IMG/VR virus record: IMGVR_UViG_3300033273_000252
Coordinates: 1-64,000 of that record
Reading direction: 5' to 3' (one strand)
Length of the DNA stretch: 64,000 nt
Source of the DNA: a virus
Shown here: positions 113-26,287 of the stretch, piece after piece
Position numbering within the stretch: the stretch's first letter is position 1
Layout of the letters: every line of letters starts with the position of its first letter
Position numbers and translations under genes: made by a program
Notes under the pieces: generated by a model
Seen by the model: the letters and a program-made list of their open reading frames with translations, nothing else
Told to the model about the DNA's origin: nothing
Databases searched by the model: none

Positions 113-280
113 TCTTTACTCCAAATTCTATCTAACATAAAATACCATAAGGCATTAATTAGAGGTTCTACAATAGCATCTTTAAAATTTACCCCAACCA
201 GTTTTACCACTAAGATACAACTCAGTTGATAGTTTAAGACCTAACCAACAATCCTTAAAAAACTTTTTTATCTTTTTCAT
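109..280 (-). CDS. small protein split by a +1 frame change
   Basis: An ATG at 280 overlaps the stop of the upstream gene (ATGA) and encodes 32 residues (MKKIKKFFKDCWLGL and onward) before a TAA at 182-184. From the codon at the stop, the +1 frame stays open for another ~25 residues (FKDAIVEPLINALWYF, then MLDRIWSKE) and ends with a TGA at 109-111 that overlaps the next ATG. Both ends are coupled to neighbours, so the two halves look like one ~57-residue protein. The junction reads TTT TAA A, where slipping by +1 on TTTT replaces the stop with AAA. It could be a programmed shift, a one-base insertion in this genome or an assembly error. Function unknown. Confidence 0.5.
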
Positions 281-510
281 TCTACTGCGTATAAGTCTAC
301 GTTATTCTCATTCATAATACGATTGAATTCTTCTCTTACCTCTTCAAGTGCATCATATTTCTCTTGACTCATTTCATCGGGAGCATATTTAATTTGTGCT
401 CGTAAGTATTGTTCCATCTCCCAACAAACGTGTTTCCAATCACCACCTTGAAGGGCAAGGTCGAAATCAACTTGGTCTTCAGGTAGATTAAAAGTTAAAG
501 TTGCTTTCAT
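277..510 (-). CDS. conserved phage hypothetical protein (acidic, 77 aa)
   Basis: A 77-residue acidic protein starting MKATLTFNLPEDQ. I recall similar short proteins (N-terminal beta strand, then LPEDQ, then a Cys-Trp-containing helix) from many tailed phages, but no function is established. The start follows an AAAGAGAA leader, and the same leader precedes the gene upstream at 660. The stop overlaps the following ATG. No membrane segment or metal site is visible. Confidence 0.75.
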   Translation of the reverse strand: MKATLTFNLPEDQVDFDLALQGGDWKHVCWEMEQYLRAQIKYAPDEMSQEKYDALEEVREEFNRIMNENNVDLYAVE

Positions 511-7143: not shown

Positions 7144-7521
7144 CTATCGTTTCAATTCTACTTCTACTTCATATTCACTTACGCGTAAGTGAACGAATTT
7201 AATAATAGAAAGAGCTCTTTCATTGAATTTTGAATCGACAAGGACAAATGTAGCTTCTCTTACGATTTTACCATCATCATATGCTACTTCAATGGCTGAT
7301 AGTTCTGCACATAACTCCCCATTATAATACACATCCGTTCCATCATATGTTAGCCCACTTGTATCAACATTCTTTAATGGATTAACTGCACAACTTGTTA
7401 GAAATAGAAAGAAAAGTATTAGAATCGCTCCAACGAAGCCAAGACCTACAATCCTATACGAATCTTTCATTTGTTTGGGGGTTCTTCCTTGATTGCTTCT
7501 GTATTGTCTTTTATTATTCAT
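7144..7521 (-). CDS. putative membrane-anchored or lipoprotein (125 aa)
   Basis: A polar basic N-terminus of ~23 residues, then a hydrophobic helix (residues ~25-42) that ends in FLTSC, a lipobox-like motif with Cys44. The following ~80 residues are soluble, beta-rich (TYDGTDVYYNGELC) and would be outside the inner membrane. It is encoded just below an exported nuclease gene. The long N-terminal tail is unusual for a lipoprotein signal, so a simple signal anchor is equally possible. Function unknown. Confidence 0.6.
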   Translation of the reverse strand: MNNKRQYRSNQGRTPKQMKDSYRIVGLGFVGAILILFFLFLTSCAVNPLKNVDTSGLTYDGTDVYYNGELCAELSAIEVAYDDGKIVREATFVLVDSKFNERALSIIKFVHLRVSEYEVEVELKR

Positions 7522-7530
7522 ATTATTAAT

Positions 7531-8127
7531 TTATTGTTCGATTATAAAACTAAACCAATCTTCACCAGCTACGTTAATATTTGGAAAATAGAACTTCCAA
7601 TGATTACCTTTGAAATGTATGGTCTTATAGAATCCTCTTGGGATTGCTGCACCACCTGGTACTCGTTCGGGATTTTCCGTGAAATCTACCTCAACGATTA
7701 CTACCACCTCAAAGAACTTAGCAAGGTCTCTCTCAAATCTCTCCAACTCTTTCCACGGCCCTCTATTGAGTCCTTCGTGTTGTAAAGCACAATTTAGATA
7801 GGTAAATGTTTTTTTGATTGTTTCTTTATCACAATTGAACGCATTAGCGGGTGCAAGGTGACCTCTATCCCATTCGTTGTCTTTGTAATCTTCGTTATCT
7901 GAAGTATGAACATTATCATATCCATACCACGAGATTCCACTTCGGCCTTGTTCGCCAGTTGGACATTCTACTCTATATTTTAGTTTGATTGGTTGTTCAT
8001 AATCCTCAGAGTAGGTAACTGTAAAGATATCAGTTACGATTGTTACCCTGTCCTGCGCGAATACTGATGTAAATCCACAAGCCAAGAAGAATCCCACAAA
8101 CAATAGCAACACCCATTTACTCTTCAT
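7531..8127 (-). CDS. exported DNA/RNA non-specific endonuclease (NUC1 family)
   Basis: With ATG at 8127 (MKSKWVLLLF; in-frame ATGs also at 8130, 8133 and 8139) the protein has a Sec signal peptide, with likely cleavage after SVFA at ~24. The mature part carries the NUC1 (Serratia-type) active site: DRGHLAPANAF at residues 87-97 (catalytic His90), Asn112 in YLNCA, NRGPW at 121-125 and Glu128. Family members cut DNA and RNA with Mg2+. Secretion implies action in the periplasm or outside the cell. It overlaps the upstream gene by 11 bp. Confidence 0.8.
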   Translation of the reverse strand: MKSKWVLLLFVGFFLACGFTSVFAQDRVTIVTDIFTVTYSEDYEQPIKLKYRVECPTGEQGRSGISWYGYDNVHTSDNEDYKDNEWDRGHLAPANAFNCDKETIKKTFTYLNCALQHEGLNRGPWKELERFERDLAKFFEVVVIVEVDFTENPERVPGGAAIPRGFYKTIHFKGNHWKFYFPNINVAGEDWFSFIIEQ

Positions 8128-8680
8128 CATCATCTCCATTTTCTAAATAAACATCCGTTCGTGCTTCTGCCATAAGTTCATCCTTAGCATCGGCTACATT
8201 ATCCCAAAGAGAGTCCCACTTTTCATCGTAGTTCTCATCTTCTGAATTTGGTATTTTATCACTCCAATCCTCAGAGTAATCAACCATCTCACCTCTCCAC
8301 ATACATCCACCTCCAATGAAGTTTAATCCCTCATCTTCAAATGTGAATGAAATCTCTACATCTTCATCGACCTCGGAAAGAACATTCCATAGTTGTTCAA
8401 TCGCTTCCTTTGGCCAAGACCAAGCTGAAGTGGTGTTGATTTCACAATATTCATCTTCGATTTGGGAATCATCAATATAACACCATTTAGCTCCCATATC
8501 TTCGGTATATTCTCCTCGGTCATATTCTACCGATTCATCAAGGTTGTATAATTTTTTATACCACCACATAGTTTGTTGTTGGTCTTCCCAACTGGCACCT
8601 CTGAACATATCTATCATTTTTTGATAGACTTCATTGTTGTCAGATGTTACCTCAATCCAAGTCGAAACGTGATTTGCCAT
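8117..8680 (-). CDS. Api92/YubB ferredoxin-like-fold hypothetical protein
   Basis: A 187-residue, very acidic protein with an asparagine/tryptophan-rich start (MANHVSTWIEVTSDN). I recall this N-terminal pattern from the phage/plasmid Api92-YubB family (ferredoxin-like fold, no Fe-S cluster, function unknown). The frame is open to a GTG at 8704; the ATG at 8680 gives the family-like start. Leader of ~70 nt from the promoter at 8755-8785. The C-terminal ~40 residues are mostly Asp/Glu. Confidence 0.55.
   Translation of the reverse strand: MANHVSTWIEVTSDNNEVYQKMIDMFRGASWEDQQQTMWWYKKLYNLDESVEYDRGEYTEDMGAKWCYIDDSQIEDEYCEINTTSAWSWPKEAIEQLWNVLSEVDEDVEISFTFEDEGLNFIGGGCMWRGEMVDYSEDWSDKIPNSEDENYDEKWDSLWDNVADAKDELMAEARTDVYLENGDDDEE

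Positions 8681-9429: not shown

Positions 9430-9430
<1 letters not shown>
8774..9430 (-). CDS. J-domain protein with N-terminal coiled coil
   Basis: A 218-residue protein. Residues 1-90 are highly charged and likely coiled coil. Residues ~95-135 are a J-domain core: LYKKLAAKLHPDRGGTDE with the HPD tripeptide required to stimulate Hsp70/DnaK ATPase, then FQKLNNAYQ. It lacks the Gly/Phe and zinc-finger parts of DnaJ, so it is a class C type co-chaperone. It follows groEL directly; the GTG at 9430 shares a base with the groEL stop (TAGTG), and ATG 9412 is the alternative start. It may recruit host DnaK to a phage step. Confidence 0.75.
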
Positions 9431-11028
<1,598 letters not shown>

Positions 11029-12215: not shown

Positions 12216-12381
12216 CATCAATAATTTCACCATCATCATATGCTTCGGTTGATGGTAGTCCCGAATAGTGACAATATTGTTCATACCAATATACATCATC
12301 CACAAAATCTTCGTGGTCTTCGTTAAGAGGGTTGTTCCCCTTCATCTTTTCGGATTCAATCCAGCGTTTAGTTAGACCCAT
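12205..12381 (-). CDS. hypothetical acidic protein (58 aa)
   Basis: ATG at 12381 lies inside the last codons of groES, TAG at 12205-12207 overlaps the next ATG. The product (MGLTKRWIESEKMKGN, then an acidic Tyr/Asp-rich tail) has no recognised domain. Both overlaps fit the operon style here. Confidence 0.6.
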   Translation of the reverse strand: MGLTKRWIESEKMKGNNPLNEDHEDFVDDVYWYEQYCHYSGLPSTEAYDDGEIIDDEY

Positions 12382-12658
12382 TGATTAACATTAAAATTTC
12401 TTGTTCACGATACATATTGTACTTCTCACCATCCAACTTCATTTGGATGCCGGTGTTTGGTACAATTACTTTGTCACCTTCTTTAAGGTTCATTGGAATG
12501 AGTTTACCATTGGCTGTATAGATACCACTACCTACAGCTACTACTTCACCCTTCATCTGCTCTTTAGCATCTGATGGTTTGTATAGCCCACCTTTAGTTT
12601 TCTCTTCTTCTTTGATTACTTTAACCAGTACATAATCGTTCAAAGGTTGATATTTCAT
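12368..12658 (-). CDS. groES: co-chaperonin GroES
   Basis: 96 residues, the usual GroES length. Seen: PLNDYVLVKVIKEEE at the N-terminus, the mobile loop region KTKGGLYKPSD (residues ~20-30), GEVVAVGSG near 37 and GDKVIVPNTG near 61. It caps the GroEL chamber. It has its own promoter 24 bp upstream and lies 1.3 kb before groEL, with several small genes and an HNH gene between. The mobile loop differs from the E. coli GGIVLT pattern (GGLYKP), so pairing may be specific to the phage GroEL. Confidence 0.95.
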   Translation of the reverse strand: MKYQPLNDYVLVKVIKEEEKTKGGLYKPSDAKEQMKGEVVAVGSGIYTANGKLIPMNLKEGDKVIVPNTGIQMKLDGEKYNMYREQEILMLINGSN

Positions 12659-22229: not shown

Positions 22230-22559
22230 TTATTTGTGTTTTGCGTTTTCTATTTCTAACTCTTTTACTACTTTTCTTAGTTCATCTACTTCTTTTTGTA
22301 AGTATTCGATTCTAAGGTCTTGTTTTGCGTCATCAGGTAATGCACCCATTTCACCTCTTGGCCACTTTACTCTAAATTCGTGATTTAATTCAACATCATC
22401 TTGCATTCTAATTACATCTAATTGTAATTGAGAAATCTCTGCGGTTAAACTAAACCAAACACCTGCGACAGATACAATACCTAATACCATTCCTATCAAT
22501 GCTTTAATGTCTAATTGTACTTTAGACTTTTCACCTATTATGTTTTCTTGCGCTTCCAT
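22230..22559 (-). CDS. membrane-anchored coiled-coil protein, paralogue of 23780-24064
   Basis: 109 residues: short polar N-terminus, LDIKALIGMVLGIVSVAGVW as the membrane helix (~17-36), and a C-terminal coiled coil (IEYLQKEVDELRKVVKEL). Shares GExxK..LD.K..G, then WF.L.A.I, with the gene at 23780, so the two are paralogues. I recall similar proteins in marine T4-like phages without known role. Possibly a holin/spanin-like or virion membrane protein. Confidence 0.65.
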   Translation of the reverse strand: MEAQENIIGEKSKVQLDIKALIGMVLGIVSVAGVWFSLTAEISQLQLDVIRMQDDVELNHEFRVKWPRGEMGALPDDAKQDLRIEYLQKEVDELRKVVKELEIENAKHK

Positions 22560-22588: not shown

Positions 22589-23233
22589 TCATAACCGTTG
22601 CATCTTTTTTAGATACTTGAACATTTCGTTACCAAGTTTCTCACCAAATCGTGAATCTGATGGGTAGTGAGCCCTTGCTATATTTCTTGAATAAGATATA
22701 TCCTTACCAATACTCATAAAATTGTATTGATGGTCAGGATACATATCACCCAATACTTTAGCAATCAGTATACCCTGAGTAGAGTGACCACTTGGATAAG
22801 ATGGAGTTTTCATCGACTCCAACTCATTACCTCTTAGTGGTATGTTTACCAAAGGGTGTTTCGCCAATTGTGTTGGTCTTGGTCTATTATATAAGTATTT
22901 AAGTGTAGTGATAATAATTGAAGAATCATCTAACAAAGTTTCAACTAATTGTTTAGGAAAGTCCAATCCAGCCGTATCACAATATTCTTTGAATACTTTA
23001 GAAACATTATCCATCTCTTCAACAAACTTTTTATCAGATGGTAATTGTGATAATTGTTGTAATTCTATCTTTACTTTAGATGAATCATTACAATGTGGTG
23101 GTTGTCCTGCGAACTGTTTCCATTCAAAATCCTTCAACATAGATGGAGTTTGTTTCATTCTCTTGAGATGTTTAGATTTTATCTCTTCAGAGTATCCCAT
23201 TGTTTTTAGTTGAACGATGTCTGATAATTTCAT
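22589..23233 (-). CDS. PAP2-family acid phosphatase
   Basis: 214 residues. The three PAP2 motifs are present: KYLYNRPRP (near residue 113), PSYPSGHS (near 144) and SRNIARAHYPSD (near 182) with the catalytic His. Without a signal peptide or membrane helices it belongs to the soluble vanadium-haloperoxidase/class A acid phosphatase group. It would release phosphate from lipid- or small-molecule phosphates; a role in lipid-linked sugar or nucleotide turnover is possible. ATGA-coupled to the basic 44-residue protein upstream. Confidence 0.8.
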   Translation of the reverse strand: MKLSDIVQLKTMGYSEEIKSKHLKRMKQTPSMLKDFEWKQFAGQPPHCNDSSKVKIELQQLSQLPSDKKFVEEMDNVSKVFKEYCDTAGLDFPKQLVETLLDDSSIIITTLKYLYNRPRPTQLAKHPLVNIPLRGNELESMKTPSYPSGHSTQGILIAKVLGDMYPDHQYNFMSIGKDISYSRNIARAHYPSDSRFGEKLGNEMFKYLKKMQRL

Positions 23234-23367: not shown

Positions 23368-23775
23368 TTAAAATTTAGAAGATTCTTTGATTTCATCTAT
23401 TGTTTCTTGGAGTTCTTCTAAATCAACAGGACACTCCAAATCCAATCCTGCCTTAAAGGTCTCCTGTAAAATACCATCTTTAAAAATTAAGATAGTGGGA
23501 GCCATTCTGATTCTATATTTCTTTTTAGCTTCAGGCGATACAGCAACATCACATCTATAATAGTTACTAATTCCTTTTACTTTATTCCAATCTTGAAATG
23601 CGTTTATATCATTGAACTTTGCCCAAAATTCAACAACTACTATTGATACTTCATCATCTCCAAATGCTGACTTCTCGTGTATCTTTTCTTCGTATGTTTT
23701 GTCACTTATCCATTCTTGACCGTGTAAATTAAATACACTCATTAATAAGAAACTGATTAATAACAATTTTTTCAT
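23368..23775 (-). CDS. exported thioredoxin-fold protein without CxxC
   Basis: 135 residues from ATG 23775 (MKKLLLISFLLMSVFNLHG is a Sec signal peptide, likely cut before QEW). The mature part has the thioredoxin layout: VSIVVVEFWAKFND (residues ~43-56) where WCGPC would be, and RMAPTILIFKDG (cis-Pro93). The active-site cysteines are replaced by Ala and Asn, so it is probably not a redox enzyme but a binding module in the periplasm. A frame extends upstream into the neighbouring gene but would lose the signal peptide. Confidence 0.65.
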   Translation of the reverse strand: MKKLLLISFLLMSVFNLHGQEWISDKTYEEKIHEKSAFGDDEVSIVVVEFWAKFNDINAFQDWNKVKGISNYYRCDVAVSPEAKKKYRIRMAPTILIFKDGILQETFKAGLDLECPVDLEELQETIDEIKESSKF

Positions 23776-23779
23776 TTCA

Positions 23780-24064
23780 TTACCTCGTTTGTTGTATCTG
23801 ATACAATCTCTCATCTATTTTATCAAGCTTTTCTTTGATTTCATCAACATCATCTTGAGTATCCATAATTGTTTGGCGGATGAGCTCATCTTTCATATCA
23901 AATTCCATTCTATCAATAACAGGTGCGGGTAACTCTTTAGCTTCTTGTATATCGGCTTGAAGGGCAAACCACATACCAACCACTGTCGCTACAGCGAAAA
24001 GAATGATACCTATCGTTTTAAGGTCAAGTGTGATTTTAGTATCTTCACCAATTTGCTTTGCCAT
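23780..24064 (-). CDS. membrane-anchored coiled-coil protein, paralogue of 22230-22559
   Basis: 94 residues: one membrane helix (TIGIILFAVATVVGMWFAL, ~17-35), then ADIQEAKELPAPVIDRMEFD and a C-terminal coiled coil (DDVDEIKEKLDKIDERLYQI). Same arrangement as the gene at 22230, with three genes between them. Common in marine T4-like phages as an uncharacterised membrane or structural protein. Confidence 0.65.
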   Translation of the reverse strand: MAKQIGEDTKITLDLKTIGIILFAVATVVGMWFALQADIQEAKELPAPVIDRMEFDMKDELIRQTIMDTQDDVDEIKEKLDKIDERLYQIQQTR

Positions 24065-24075
24065 TTTTATCCTTA

Positions 24076-25317
24076 TTACCTAAATGTATAGTTAATACCA
24101 AATGTTGTTATGAAGAACTTAGAATCCCACATTCTTGTGTATTCACCTTCAGCGAATAATCCAACGGATTTACTCAACTTCCAACCTAAGTTAGCGCCAA
24201 CTTGGAAATCCCACCATTGTTCACCAGTTGCGGCATCAGCCAAACCATACTGGTCCCAATCGTTTCTGAATAAGTAAGATAATGGAACTCTACCATATTC
24301 ATCGGTGTCACCCATCACATATTTGTGCATTGGTAAAAATGCCGTTCCGTATGCGTGAACCCAAAACTTTGAATCATAGTGATAGTAATCAAACCCAACT
24401 ACTGGCGATATCACTCCGAATAAACTTGTGTTTCCTAATACTTCTTGATTGTATAATGAAATTAGTCTCTTGTAAGCTCCATCTCTAAATTCTAAATCTG
24501 AAGATGCGATTCTATTTCCATCCGGGTCCCACCAAAAATATCCGTATATTTGTTCTTCTTCACCCGTGATTGGGTTGTTGATGGTAGTAGTGTAAAATGC
24601 GTCTTGATATCCGTATTCATACGCTAATTCATACCAATAGTTTACTTGGTCGCCATTTGCGTCTAAAGCACTTACCCAAATTTCATATGGGTTTACACCA
24701 TATACTCTTTCGTGAGTTCTAAATGCACCGCCTGCTGATAGTGAGAATTTTTTACCTATTGGTATTCTTCCCCTAACATCAACTGCATCATAATTAAAAT
24801 CAATAGCACCTTGATATCTTCTTTCTAATTTAACAATGTGGTGTTTACCTGTATGTCTAAGGAAGTATCTTTCGTTTTCCCATACCTCACCTCTTCTTCT
24901 TTCCTTTTCCCAATGAAATATATATTCCCATCCCATTACAGCAGAAGTGGGTGCGATTAGTGCGTTTTGTCTTTCTAAGTTTTGGTCACCAGTCCAGAAA
25001 TTACCTGGCTTTCTTTCGTAATCAAATCTACCAAGTTTACGAATACCAAATCCGATTCTATAATCGGCTGGGAAGTATTCAGTTACATCAACAACTTCAG
25101 GTACATCATAAATACCTTGCCCATCAGGTGTTCTAATTAAATATTTCTTATCCGATGATTCGTATGGCGCTCTATAATCACCTGCTCCGTATACCGTAGC
25201 ATACTTAAAGAAACTATCGTAAAATTGTTTTAAAATGCCATCATCCTTCTTTTTACTTTGAGCACTAGCAGGAAGGATAAATAATATACTGATTAAAATT
25301 GTTATGAACCTTTTCAT
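24076..25317 (-). CDS. putative outer-membrane beta-barrel protein
   Basis: 413 residues. Sec signal peptide MKRFITILISILFILPASAQ, then a protein rich in alternating aromatic/polar strands (for example SLSAGGAFRT, WWDFQVGANLGWK) and ending FFITTFGINYTFR, the kind of aromatic C-terminal strand used for BAM-dependent insertion. No plug or TonB box is obvious. It would sit in the host outer membrane: candidate roles are receptor masking, superinfection exclusion, or nutrient uptake. Codon use and promoter context look like the neighbours. I do not recognise a specific family. Confidence 0.65.
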   Translation of the reverse strand: MKRFITILISILFILPASAQSKKKDDGILKQFYDSFFKYATVYGAGDYRAPYESSDKKYLIRTPDGQGIYDVPEVVDVTEYFPADYRIGFGIRKLGRFDYERKPGNFWTGDQNLERQNALIAPTSAVMGWEYIFHWEKERRRGEVWENERYFLRHTGKHHIVKLERRYQGAIDFNYDAVDVRGRIPIGKKFSLSAGGAFRTHERVYGVNPYEIWVSALDANGDQVNYWYELAYEYGYQDAFYTTTINNPITGEEEQIYGYFWWDPDGNRIASSDLEFRDGAYKRLISLYNQEVLGNTSLFGVISPVVGFDYYHYDSKFWVHAYGTAFLPMHKYVMGDTDEYGRVPLSYLFRNDWDQYGLADAATGEQWWDFQVGANLGWKLSKSVGLFAEGEYTRMWDSKFFITTFGINYTFR

Positions 25318-25342: not shown

Positions 25343-25591
25343 TTATTTTTTTGCGAACTTTTCTAATCCCGCGATACCAAAACAGCCAAGGGTGATGAAT
25401 ACAAAAGAGTTATAGATGAACTCATTGATTACTAAATCTTTTCCAAAGTAACCAGTTGCTAAATCTACCGTTGCGAACACTACCATCACAGCAAACGACA
25501 TAAATCCGATTACGTTTTTTTCGTTTACATTGTTGTCATCTTTAAAAATGTCTTTAAAAGCCATCCAACTCCTCCTAATATAGTTTATCAT
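25343..25591 (-). CDS. two-span membrane protein, possible holin
   Basis: 82 residues from ATG 25591. Two hydrophobic helices (VIGFMSFAVMVVFATVDLA and FIYNSFVFITLGCFGIAGL) with a short loop and a basic end (EKFAKK). Size, topology and position next to a putative peptidoglycan-active gene fit a class II holin. No direct sequence match recalled. Confidence 0.55.
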   Translation of the reverse strand: MINYIRRSWMAFKDIFKDDNNVNEKNVIGFMSFAVMVVFATVDLATGYFGKDLVINEFIYNSFVFITLGCFGIAGLEKFAKK

Positions 25592-25675
25592 ACCCACAAC
25601 TCTTTTTATAATAATTATACTGATTTTTTGTAAAGATGCTCAGCGAATCCTATTTTTACTGTTAAATCGACTATA

Positions 25676-26287
25676 CTATACAATATCATTTGAATTAATT
25701 AATGTATATGTAAATGAGTTACCCCACACATCTCGTGCTTTTCTACAAATCTCCATAAATAATTTGAAGTCATCATTTGCGGCTATCACTTGACATCCAG
25801 CAGACCACTTATCTACCTGTACTGATTTACCACCTTCTCTAGCAGTTGCTCTATGGATATTGATGCCATAGATACCTTCGGTTACATTCTCTTCGATAAA
25901 GTCATAGGTGTCATCTCTATCACCATCACGATATACCTTTAGTGGTTTTTTCTGCCCCAATGCTTCGTACTTACCTTGGTGAAGTCTAATTTTATGTGAA
26001 CCTCTGTATTGACCCTCTTTAAGAATTGCTACTCCGTTTTTATTTAGAAGTTGTTTCTCAGTCCAATGTGAACCAGGGTCGGTTGTTGCCTCAAAGCAGT
26101 GGAAGTTCCACTCACCATTCTCATCTTTGTAAGAGATAGTAATGTGGTCATCAAACTTGTTTGTGACCTTACCATTTGTGTCAGCATTTCTAACACCAAC
26201 GATGTTTACATCATAATTGTCTGAAGTGAACCACTTATAACCTTTTCCTATTACAGCGGCTTCGATTTGTTCTCTTGTGTAACGCAT
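25676..26287 (-). CDS. YkuD/L,D-transpeptidase-like protein, possible peptidoglycan enzyme
   Basis: 203 residues. GINIHRAT at ~141-148 (His145) and VDKWSAGCQVI at ~158-168 (Cys165) recall the HG...SxGC active site of the YkuD fold, where Cys is the nucleophile. The N-terminal part has beta strands with GVRNADTNGK and TISYKDENGEW. It has no signal peptide and is followed by a two-helix membrane protein, which together resemble an endolysin-holin pair. It could also be a virion peptidoglycan hydrolase. Confidence 0.5.
   Translation of the reverse strand: MRYTREQIEAAVIGKGYKWFTSDNYDVNIVGVRNADTNGKVTNKFDDHITISYKDENGEWNFHCFEATTDPGSHWTEKQLLNKNGVAILKEGQYRGSHKIRLHQGKYEALGQKKPLKVYRDGDRDDTYDFIEENVTEGIYGINIHRATAREGGKSVQVDKWSAGCQVIAANDDFKLFMEICRKARDVWGNSFTYTLINSNDIV

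Follow-up and report, generated by a model that had tools for sequence, protein, structure and literature searches.

A marine virus sequence encodes an exported barrel-type protein that is held in a strict three-gene module and sits beside endolysin and holin-like genes. We tentatively read this module, consisting of the barrel, a small membrane protein (CC) and an exported thioredoxin-fold protein (TRX), as acting on the envelope at the stage of lysis, with the barrel replacing the outer-membrane spanin lipoprotein, and we put the probability of this reading at about 40%. The DNA analysed, hereafter the window, comprises positions 1 to 64,000 of IMG/VR record IMGVR_UViG_3300033273_000252 and belongs to a virus record of 93 kb.

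An exported barrel-type protein

The barrel gene lies on the minus strand, which the initial annotation had left unstated while giving its coordinates exactly (Table 1). The 413-residue product described there, with a Sec signal, a strand-rich mature body and the C-terminal end GINYTFR, was confirmed. Its signal peptide reads MKRFITILISILFILPASAQ and is followed by S, with a hydrophobic core of 2.49 on the Kyte-Doolittle scale. A lipobox cysteine was sought in this peptide, which ends SAQ, and was absent. Relatives keep the type of signal peptide, with a variable signal sequence. The ORF is a real gene under purifying selection, because dN/dS is about 0.1 (approximately 0.09–0.11 against four relatives at 78–83% identity) and 168 distinct relatives were gathered.

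An AlphaFold2 model built on 118 relatives, superseding a shallower first model from 23, has a mean pLDDT of 81 and a pTM of 0.74 and contains 12 long strands in addition to shorter loop strands. The alternation of lipid-facing and lumen-facing residues over the 12 strands scored 2.49, compared with 1.35 ± 0.29, and exceeded 2,000 of 2,000 within-strand shuffles. Together with the Sec signal peptide, the even number of amphipathic strands and the aromatic end are the marks of an outer-membrane barrel. Among the best 50 PDB matches, nearly all were bacterial outer-membrane barrels and the remainder the mitochondrial TOM barrel, with TM-scores of only 0.16–0.28. Assignment of the predicted fold to the outer-membrane barrel class is well supported. 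Signal peptide, predicted strands, alternation and PDB fold matches all agree with the initial annotation, which had called the protein an exported outer-membrane beta-barrel of a phage; a 12-strand, barrel-type fold was recovered, but its closure and correct shape are predicted rather than proven, given the low TM-scores to solved barrels. The sole full-length fold match was A0A516LKJ4, an unnamed viral protein of 342 aa in BFVD (E = 8e-29, TM-score 0.62/0.74, 22% identity).

The barrel topology was drawn with both termini taken as periplasmic. The segment after strand 2, together with R93-K94, holds the motif RKxxRFxYE, in which R, K, R, Y and E never vary: R93, K94, R97, Y100, E101, G110 and E115 were identical in 118 of 118 sequences, and F98 and A122 were conserved in 97%. 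The outer loops are not hypervariable, their conservation being close to that of the strands, and long segments separate strands 7 and 8 (97 residues) and strands 9 and 10 (42 residues). The predicted fold resembles porins and polypeptide transporters (for example, NanC, FapF and OmpM1), as would suit a pore for nutrient uptake or solute release. However, the two long segments may plug the barrel, the gene lies in a late lysis region and a porin would not need the constant CC and redox-dead TRX partners described below, all of which makes a pore improbable. Nutrient uptake, which the initial annotation had suggested the protein might aid, found no support anywhere in the analysis.

Table 1. 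Features of the barrel gene, its module and its surroundings (window coordinates unless a residue range or another contig is given).
Feature	Position	Strand	Remarks
Predicted outer-membrane beta-barrel gene	24076..25317	minus	413 aa, subfamily A; from signal peptide, predicted strands, relatives and PDB fold matches
Sec signal peptide (barrel residues 1–20)	25258..25317	minus	ends PASAQ, followed by S; Bacteroidota style
Segment between strands 2 and 3 (residues 95–128)	24934..25035	minus	inferred periplasmic; with R93-K94 holds RKxxRFxYE
Predicted barrel-wall strands 1–6	residues 41–49, 85–94, 129–141, 144–156, 160–169, 174–187		AlphaFold2
Predicted barrel-wall strands 7–12	residues 191–202, 300–314, 318–327, 370–380, 385–396, 399–410		AlphaFold2
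CC (module gene 2)	23780..24064	minus	94 aa; one N-terminal transmembrane segment, coiled-coil-like tail, i-spanin-like topology, no cysteine
TRX (module gene 3)	23368..23775	minus	exported thioredoxin-fold protein, about 135 aa; CxxC missing
Holin-like membrane protein	25343..25597	minus	84 aa; function inferred from topology and place
Endolysin	25676..26287	minus	phrog_3000 family; also matches phrog_33083 (endolysin)
Type IX cargo ORFs with TIGR04183 over cut-off	L132:5291-7798, L090:10663-14175, L103:4233-7490, L319:3689-5983, L260:3279-5783		usually adjoining a subfamily B barrel

Spread of the barrel family

Used as a single query, the barrel sequence recovered only itself. Alignment A1, of four close relatives, recovered 11 contigs, and alignment A2, of 23 members, recovered at least 577 IMG/VR contigs encoding the barrel among 600 candidates. 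Two subfamilies were distinguished: subfamily A, the window's kind, of about 390–440 aa, and subfamily B, of about 345–373 aa and near 30% identical to the window protein. By contrast, tblastn of divergent barrels against 50,697 phage isolate records returned nothing beyond two chance matches (E = 8), and no counterpart of CC, of TRX or of a 1974-aa neighbour was found in the isolate records. The initial view that such proteins are rare in phages is therefore true of isolates for this family, but not of marine viral contigs, and other phage outer-membrane barrels exist as annotated entries.

In Pfam, the best match among 23 barrel members was to DUF4751, for one member (E = 0.002), with no Ail/Lom, porin or PorP/SprF family among the matches listed. 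The window barrel had no match in NCBIfam. In PHROGs the best match for the barrel (0.014) was not usable, and a profile search of the PDB returned nothing. A lectin (E = 0.16) and the head decoration family phrog_19421 (E = 0.35) were weak single matches and were rejected as chance. We also rejected as a host copy the sole host-genome contig found, L134 (PBPJ01000057.1), from a ‘Candidatus Woesearchaeota’ MAG. It is probably a misbinned phage contig, because its genes run barrel, CC, TRX, holin-like and endolysin, the complete order of these phages.

On sequence grounds the window phage is T4-like, because its family B DNA polymerase matches those of T4-like isolates (best 47.6%, Microcystis phage Mel-JY01; others about 31–33% among the matches listed) and PF07068, the T4-type capsid protein, was found in a sister record. 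This sister, IMGVR_UViG_3300033182_000538 (167 kb), matches the window at 99.7% over 8.9 kb around the barrel gene. Among 30 barrel-bearing records, six had a T4 capsid protein and four a T4-type polymerase. Many of the 24 without a T4 capsid match are 60–70 kb long, a size cluster suggesting that the barrel also occurs in at least one other phage group, with the proviso that records may be fragments. T4-like markers co-occur with both subfamilies, with A in G080, G082, G085, G047 and G092 and with B in G100.

Elsewhere in the window, a cluster of sugar-modifying genes (glycosyltransferases, an epimerase and an aminotransferase-like gene) extends from 30594 to about 43000; because the near-identical sister contig diverges just beyond 30594, this stretch may be an exchanged surface-glycan cassette. 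Phage genes resembling GroEL (9430–11025) and GroES (12368–12658) were noted by sequence inspection.

A strict three-gene module

The CC and TRX genes lie downstream of the barrel. For the 96 distinct barrels flanked by 3 kb on either side, TRX was present in every case and CC in 93, all on the same strand, with a median barrel–CC gap of 2 bp. Both partners were found at 43 of 46 non-redundant loci fetched by barrel sequence alone and at 27 of 27 non-redundant subfamily A loci (median barrel–CC gap 4.5 bp), whereas CC or TRX occurred at 3 of 80 control DNA-polymerase loci. At the level of whole records, CC was present in 16/16 barrel carriers and 0/6 non-carriers, and in 30/30 of a second set of carriers, counts that are not phylogenetically independent. 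The six non-carriers comprised five long T4-like records and Mel-JY01, whose lack of a barrel was taken from the tblastn search of isolate records.

CC is the most constant member of the module, with 49–83% identity to the window copy, compared with 25–62% for TRX. It has one hydrophobic segment (residues 18–35) and a 59-residue charged C-terminal tail of net charge −8, in which heptads were judged by eye. TRX matched Pfam PF00085 at E = 9e-5, just under the curated cut-off, a weak fold match. The CxxC active site is present in 1 of 160 TRX sequences, and because the other 159 have lost it, TRX appears more likely to be a binding module than a redox enzyme. Cysteines are scarce in its partners too: 162 of 165 CC sequences have none after residue 25, and likewise 143 of 172 barrels.

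A 109-aa paralogue of CC with a similar N-terminal transmembrane stretch is encoded at window positions 22230–22559 (E = 7.6e-8 to the CC profile), and a PAP2-superfamily phosphatase gene (22589–23233; Pfam E = 2.4e-9) lies just past the module.

Position among lysis genes

The order of genes in the window is endolysin, holin-like gene, barrel, CC and TRX. The holin-like protein had no PHROG match and a weak, sub-cut-off match to Pfam PF17555. We scanned 3 kb around each barrel for four endolysin and three holin families and found an endolysin or holin at 25/27 subfamily A loci and 12/19 subfamily B loci, as against 0/56 DNA-polymerase windows, a control from T4-like phages only. In other phages, a very large late protein (about 1800–2000 aa) precedes the module. 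Such a neighbour could point to a virion component, for example of the tail or ejection apparatus, but the clear Sec signal peptide, the barrel pattern and constant neighbours that are envelope and lysis proteins render a virion role most improbable.

Spanning of the envelope by the module would proceed as follows. The barrel would be exported by Sec and inserted as 12 strands into the outer membrane of a Bacteroidota host, CC would be an inner-membrane protein whose coiled-coil tail reaches into the periplasm, and TRX would be an exported, redox-dead adaptor of thioredoxin fold in the periplasm. Because the genes are placed among those for holin and endolysin, the module would most likely act as infection ends. 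After degradation of the cell wall by the endolysin, CC would bind the barrel on its periplasmic side, perhaps via the invariant RKxxRFxYE site and with TRX as adaptor, and the three-protein bridge would disrupt the outer membrane, the barrel taking over the job of the o-spanin lipoprotein.

This lysis-stage reading draws on the barrel evidence, on the strict linkage and co-occurrence of the three genes, on the excess of endolysin and holin genes over the control and on the topology of CC. Scanned in pieces, the 167-kb sister genome has no lipoprotein gene inside its lysis cluster. A survey of spanins, in which 91 of 677 phages had none, allows that ‘an OMP could act as an o-spanin’ (PMC6139136). 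Against the reading, barrel and CC are mostly free of cysteine, a residue present in 507 of 528 known two-component spanins (PMC6139136). The sister genome also has two lipoprotein candidates outside the lysis cluster, which could serve instead, and lipoproteins close to the module in some relatives could be ordinary o-spanins. A further point against a pure lysis role is the coupling of subfamily B barrels to type IX cargo, which it does not explain. More specifically, the module could constitute a third architecture for outer-membrane disruption, in which the barrel serves as o-spanin together with CC and a redox-dead TRX adaptor, widespread in uncultured marine phages probably infecting Bacteroidota; we hold this version to be possible but doubtful.

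The same linkage data would fit a complex that stabilises as well as one that destroys. The barrel, CC and TRX might tie the outer to the inner membrane until release, setting the timing of lysis or supporting the envelope instead of rupturing it. The sequence holds nothing that separates such a role from the lysis module, and we consider it unlikely.

In the window itself, a 125-aa lipoprotein candidate is encoded beside a 202-aa secreted protein that by eye resembles a DNA/RNA non-specific endonuclease (7144–8139); this lipoprotein could be an o-spanin distant from the lysis cluster.

Type IX cargo and likely hosts

In subfamily B, 35 of 39 barrels adjoin an ORF for a large secreted protein that carries a C-terminal sorting domain for type IX secretion; the spacing is most often +3 or −2 bp. 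TIGR04183 scored above cut-off in all five cargo ORFs tested. No type IX cargo gene lies beside the barrel at any of 37 subfamily A loci, TIGR04183 had no match in G000, and type IX cargo was not found in the window phage within the part of the genome covered. Long T4-like relatives without the barrel carry type IX cargo, several of them beside endolysin and holin-like genes. The endolysin's relatives among isolates are mainly from Bacteroides and crAss-like phages. Hosts are very likely Bacteroidota, given the type IX cargo, these endolysin relatives and signal peptides ending in Q.

At the barrel-less T4-like loci L334, L336, L337 and L339 (records G028, G046, G042 and G027), a type IX cargo ORF lies near endolysin and/or holin-like genes, together with other secreted proteins and a 230–246-aa lipoprotein-like protein that matched no family; near the lysis genes of L336 there is in addition a C-type lectin domain protein. 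A CsgG-like identity was considered for the 246-aa lipoprotein and was not supported.

Because the sister subfamily B is coupled to type IX cargo, we retain surface remodelling as the main rival to the lysis-stage reading, if a rather doubtful one. In this view the phage would place the barrel on the cell surface, either as a surface protein in its own right or to anchor phage type IX cargo or help export it. Superinfection would thereby be blocked, receptors masked or infected cells made sticky, and CC and TRX would aid assembly of the barrel. That barrel-less T4-like relatives have other secreted surface genes (type IX cargo, C-type lectin) beside endolysin is consistent with such a role, as is the report, in PMC7468147, of type IX cargo on phages tied to superinfection or competition. 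However, the coupling does not extend to subfamily A or G000, and conservation of the loops is about equal to that of the strands, unlike in a fast-evolving surface decoy. The constant partners, moreover, are inner-membrane and periplasmic proteins, and the barrel gene sits with lysis genes. The initial annotation had suggested a change of the host surface or a contribution to uptake. Of these, surface change may yet apply, but the gene context does not favour the proposed roles most, and a role at lysis is no less likely because a fixed three-gene envelope module lies inside the endolysin/holin region.

Relation to known systems

The module resembles two-component spanins (lambda Rz/Rz1 and T4 PseT.3/PseT.2) in its place in the lysis region and in pairing a predicted outer-membrane partner with a small protein, CC, whose N-terminal hydrophobic segment and coiled-coil-like tail would suit an inner-membrane i-spanin. 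Unlike in these systems, the outer-membrane partner is a predicted 12-strand barrel without a lipobox, TRX is a third partner and there are almost no cysteines. As the lipobox is absent and the usual cysteine mostly so, the module, judged by its sequences, falls outside the two-component spanins.

The prophage protein Lom (Ail/Lom family) and the porin of phage PA-2 are phage-encoded, Sec-exported outer-membrane barrels, lone and host-like. The barrel gene described here likewise encodes a predicted Sec-exported outer-membrane barrel in a phage, but it lacks a Pfam match and has CC and TRX as constant companions.

The CsgG/CsgF curli pore of pelagimyophages and of methylophage Melnitz is also phage-encoded, with unknown function (PMC7029224, PMC9004378), and a lysis role has been proposed for pelagimyophage CsgG (PMC9004378). 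Both are outer-membrane pore genes of marine T4-like phages, the barrel being pore-like by prediction. In contrast to CsgG, a nine-subunit pore, the barrel is predicted to be single-chain, bears no sequence relation to it and likely belongs to phages of different hosts. Cryophages with type IX cargo (PMC7468147) offer a further parallel, as phages of Bacteroidota type that use the host type IX system, and subfamily B barrels adjoin such cargo; however, the barrel–CC–TRX module is not described in the available part of that article.

Phage outer-membrane proteins and phage pores, including pelagimyophage CsgG, are already known. The new elements are the barrel family, how widely it occurs and its place in a strict three-gene module. 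Few details are known of outer-membrane breaching by phages that infect Bacteroidota, a major marine phylum, and the module is a concrete and widespread candidate for this step. If instead surface remodelling were true, phage-encoded outer-membrane proteins would be tied to the type IX secretion system of the host. With the barrel, phages may have a novel means of rupturing or remodelling the outer membrane of the host.
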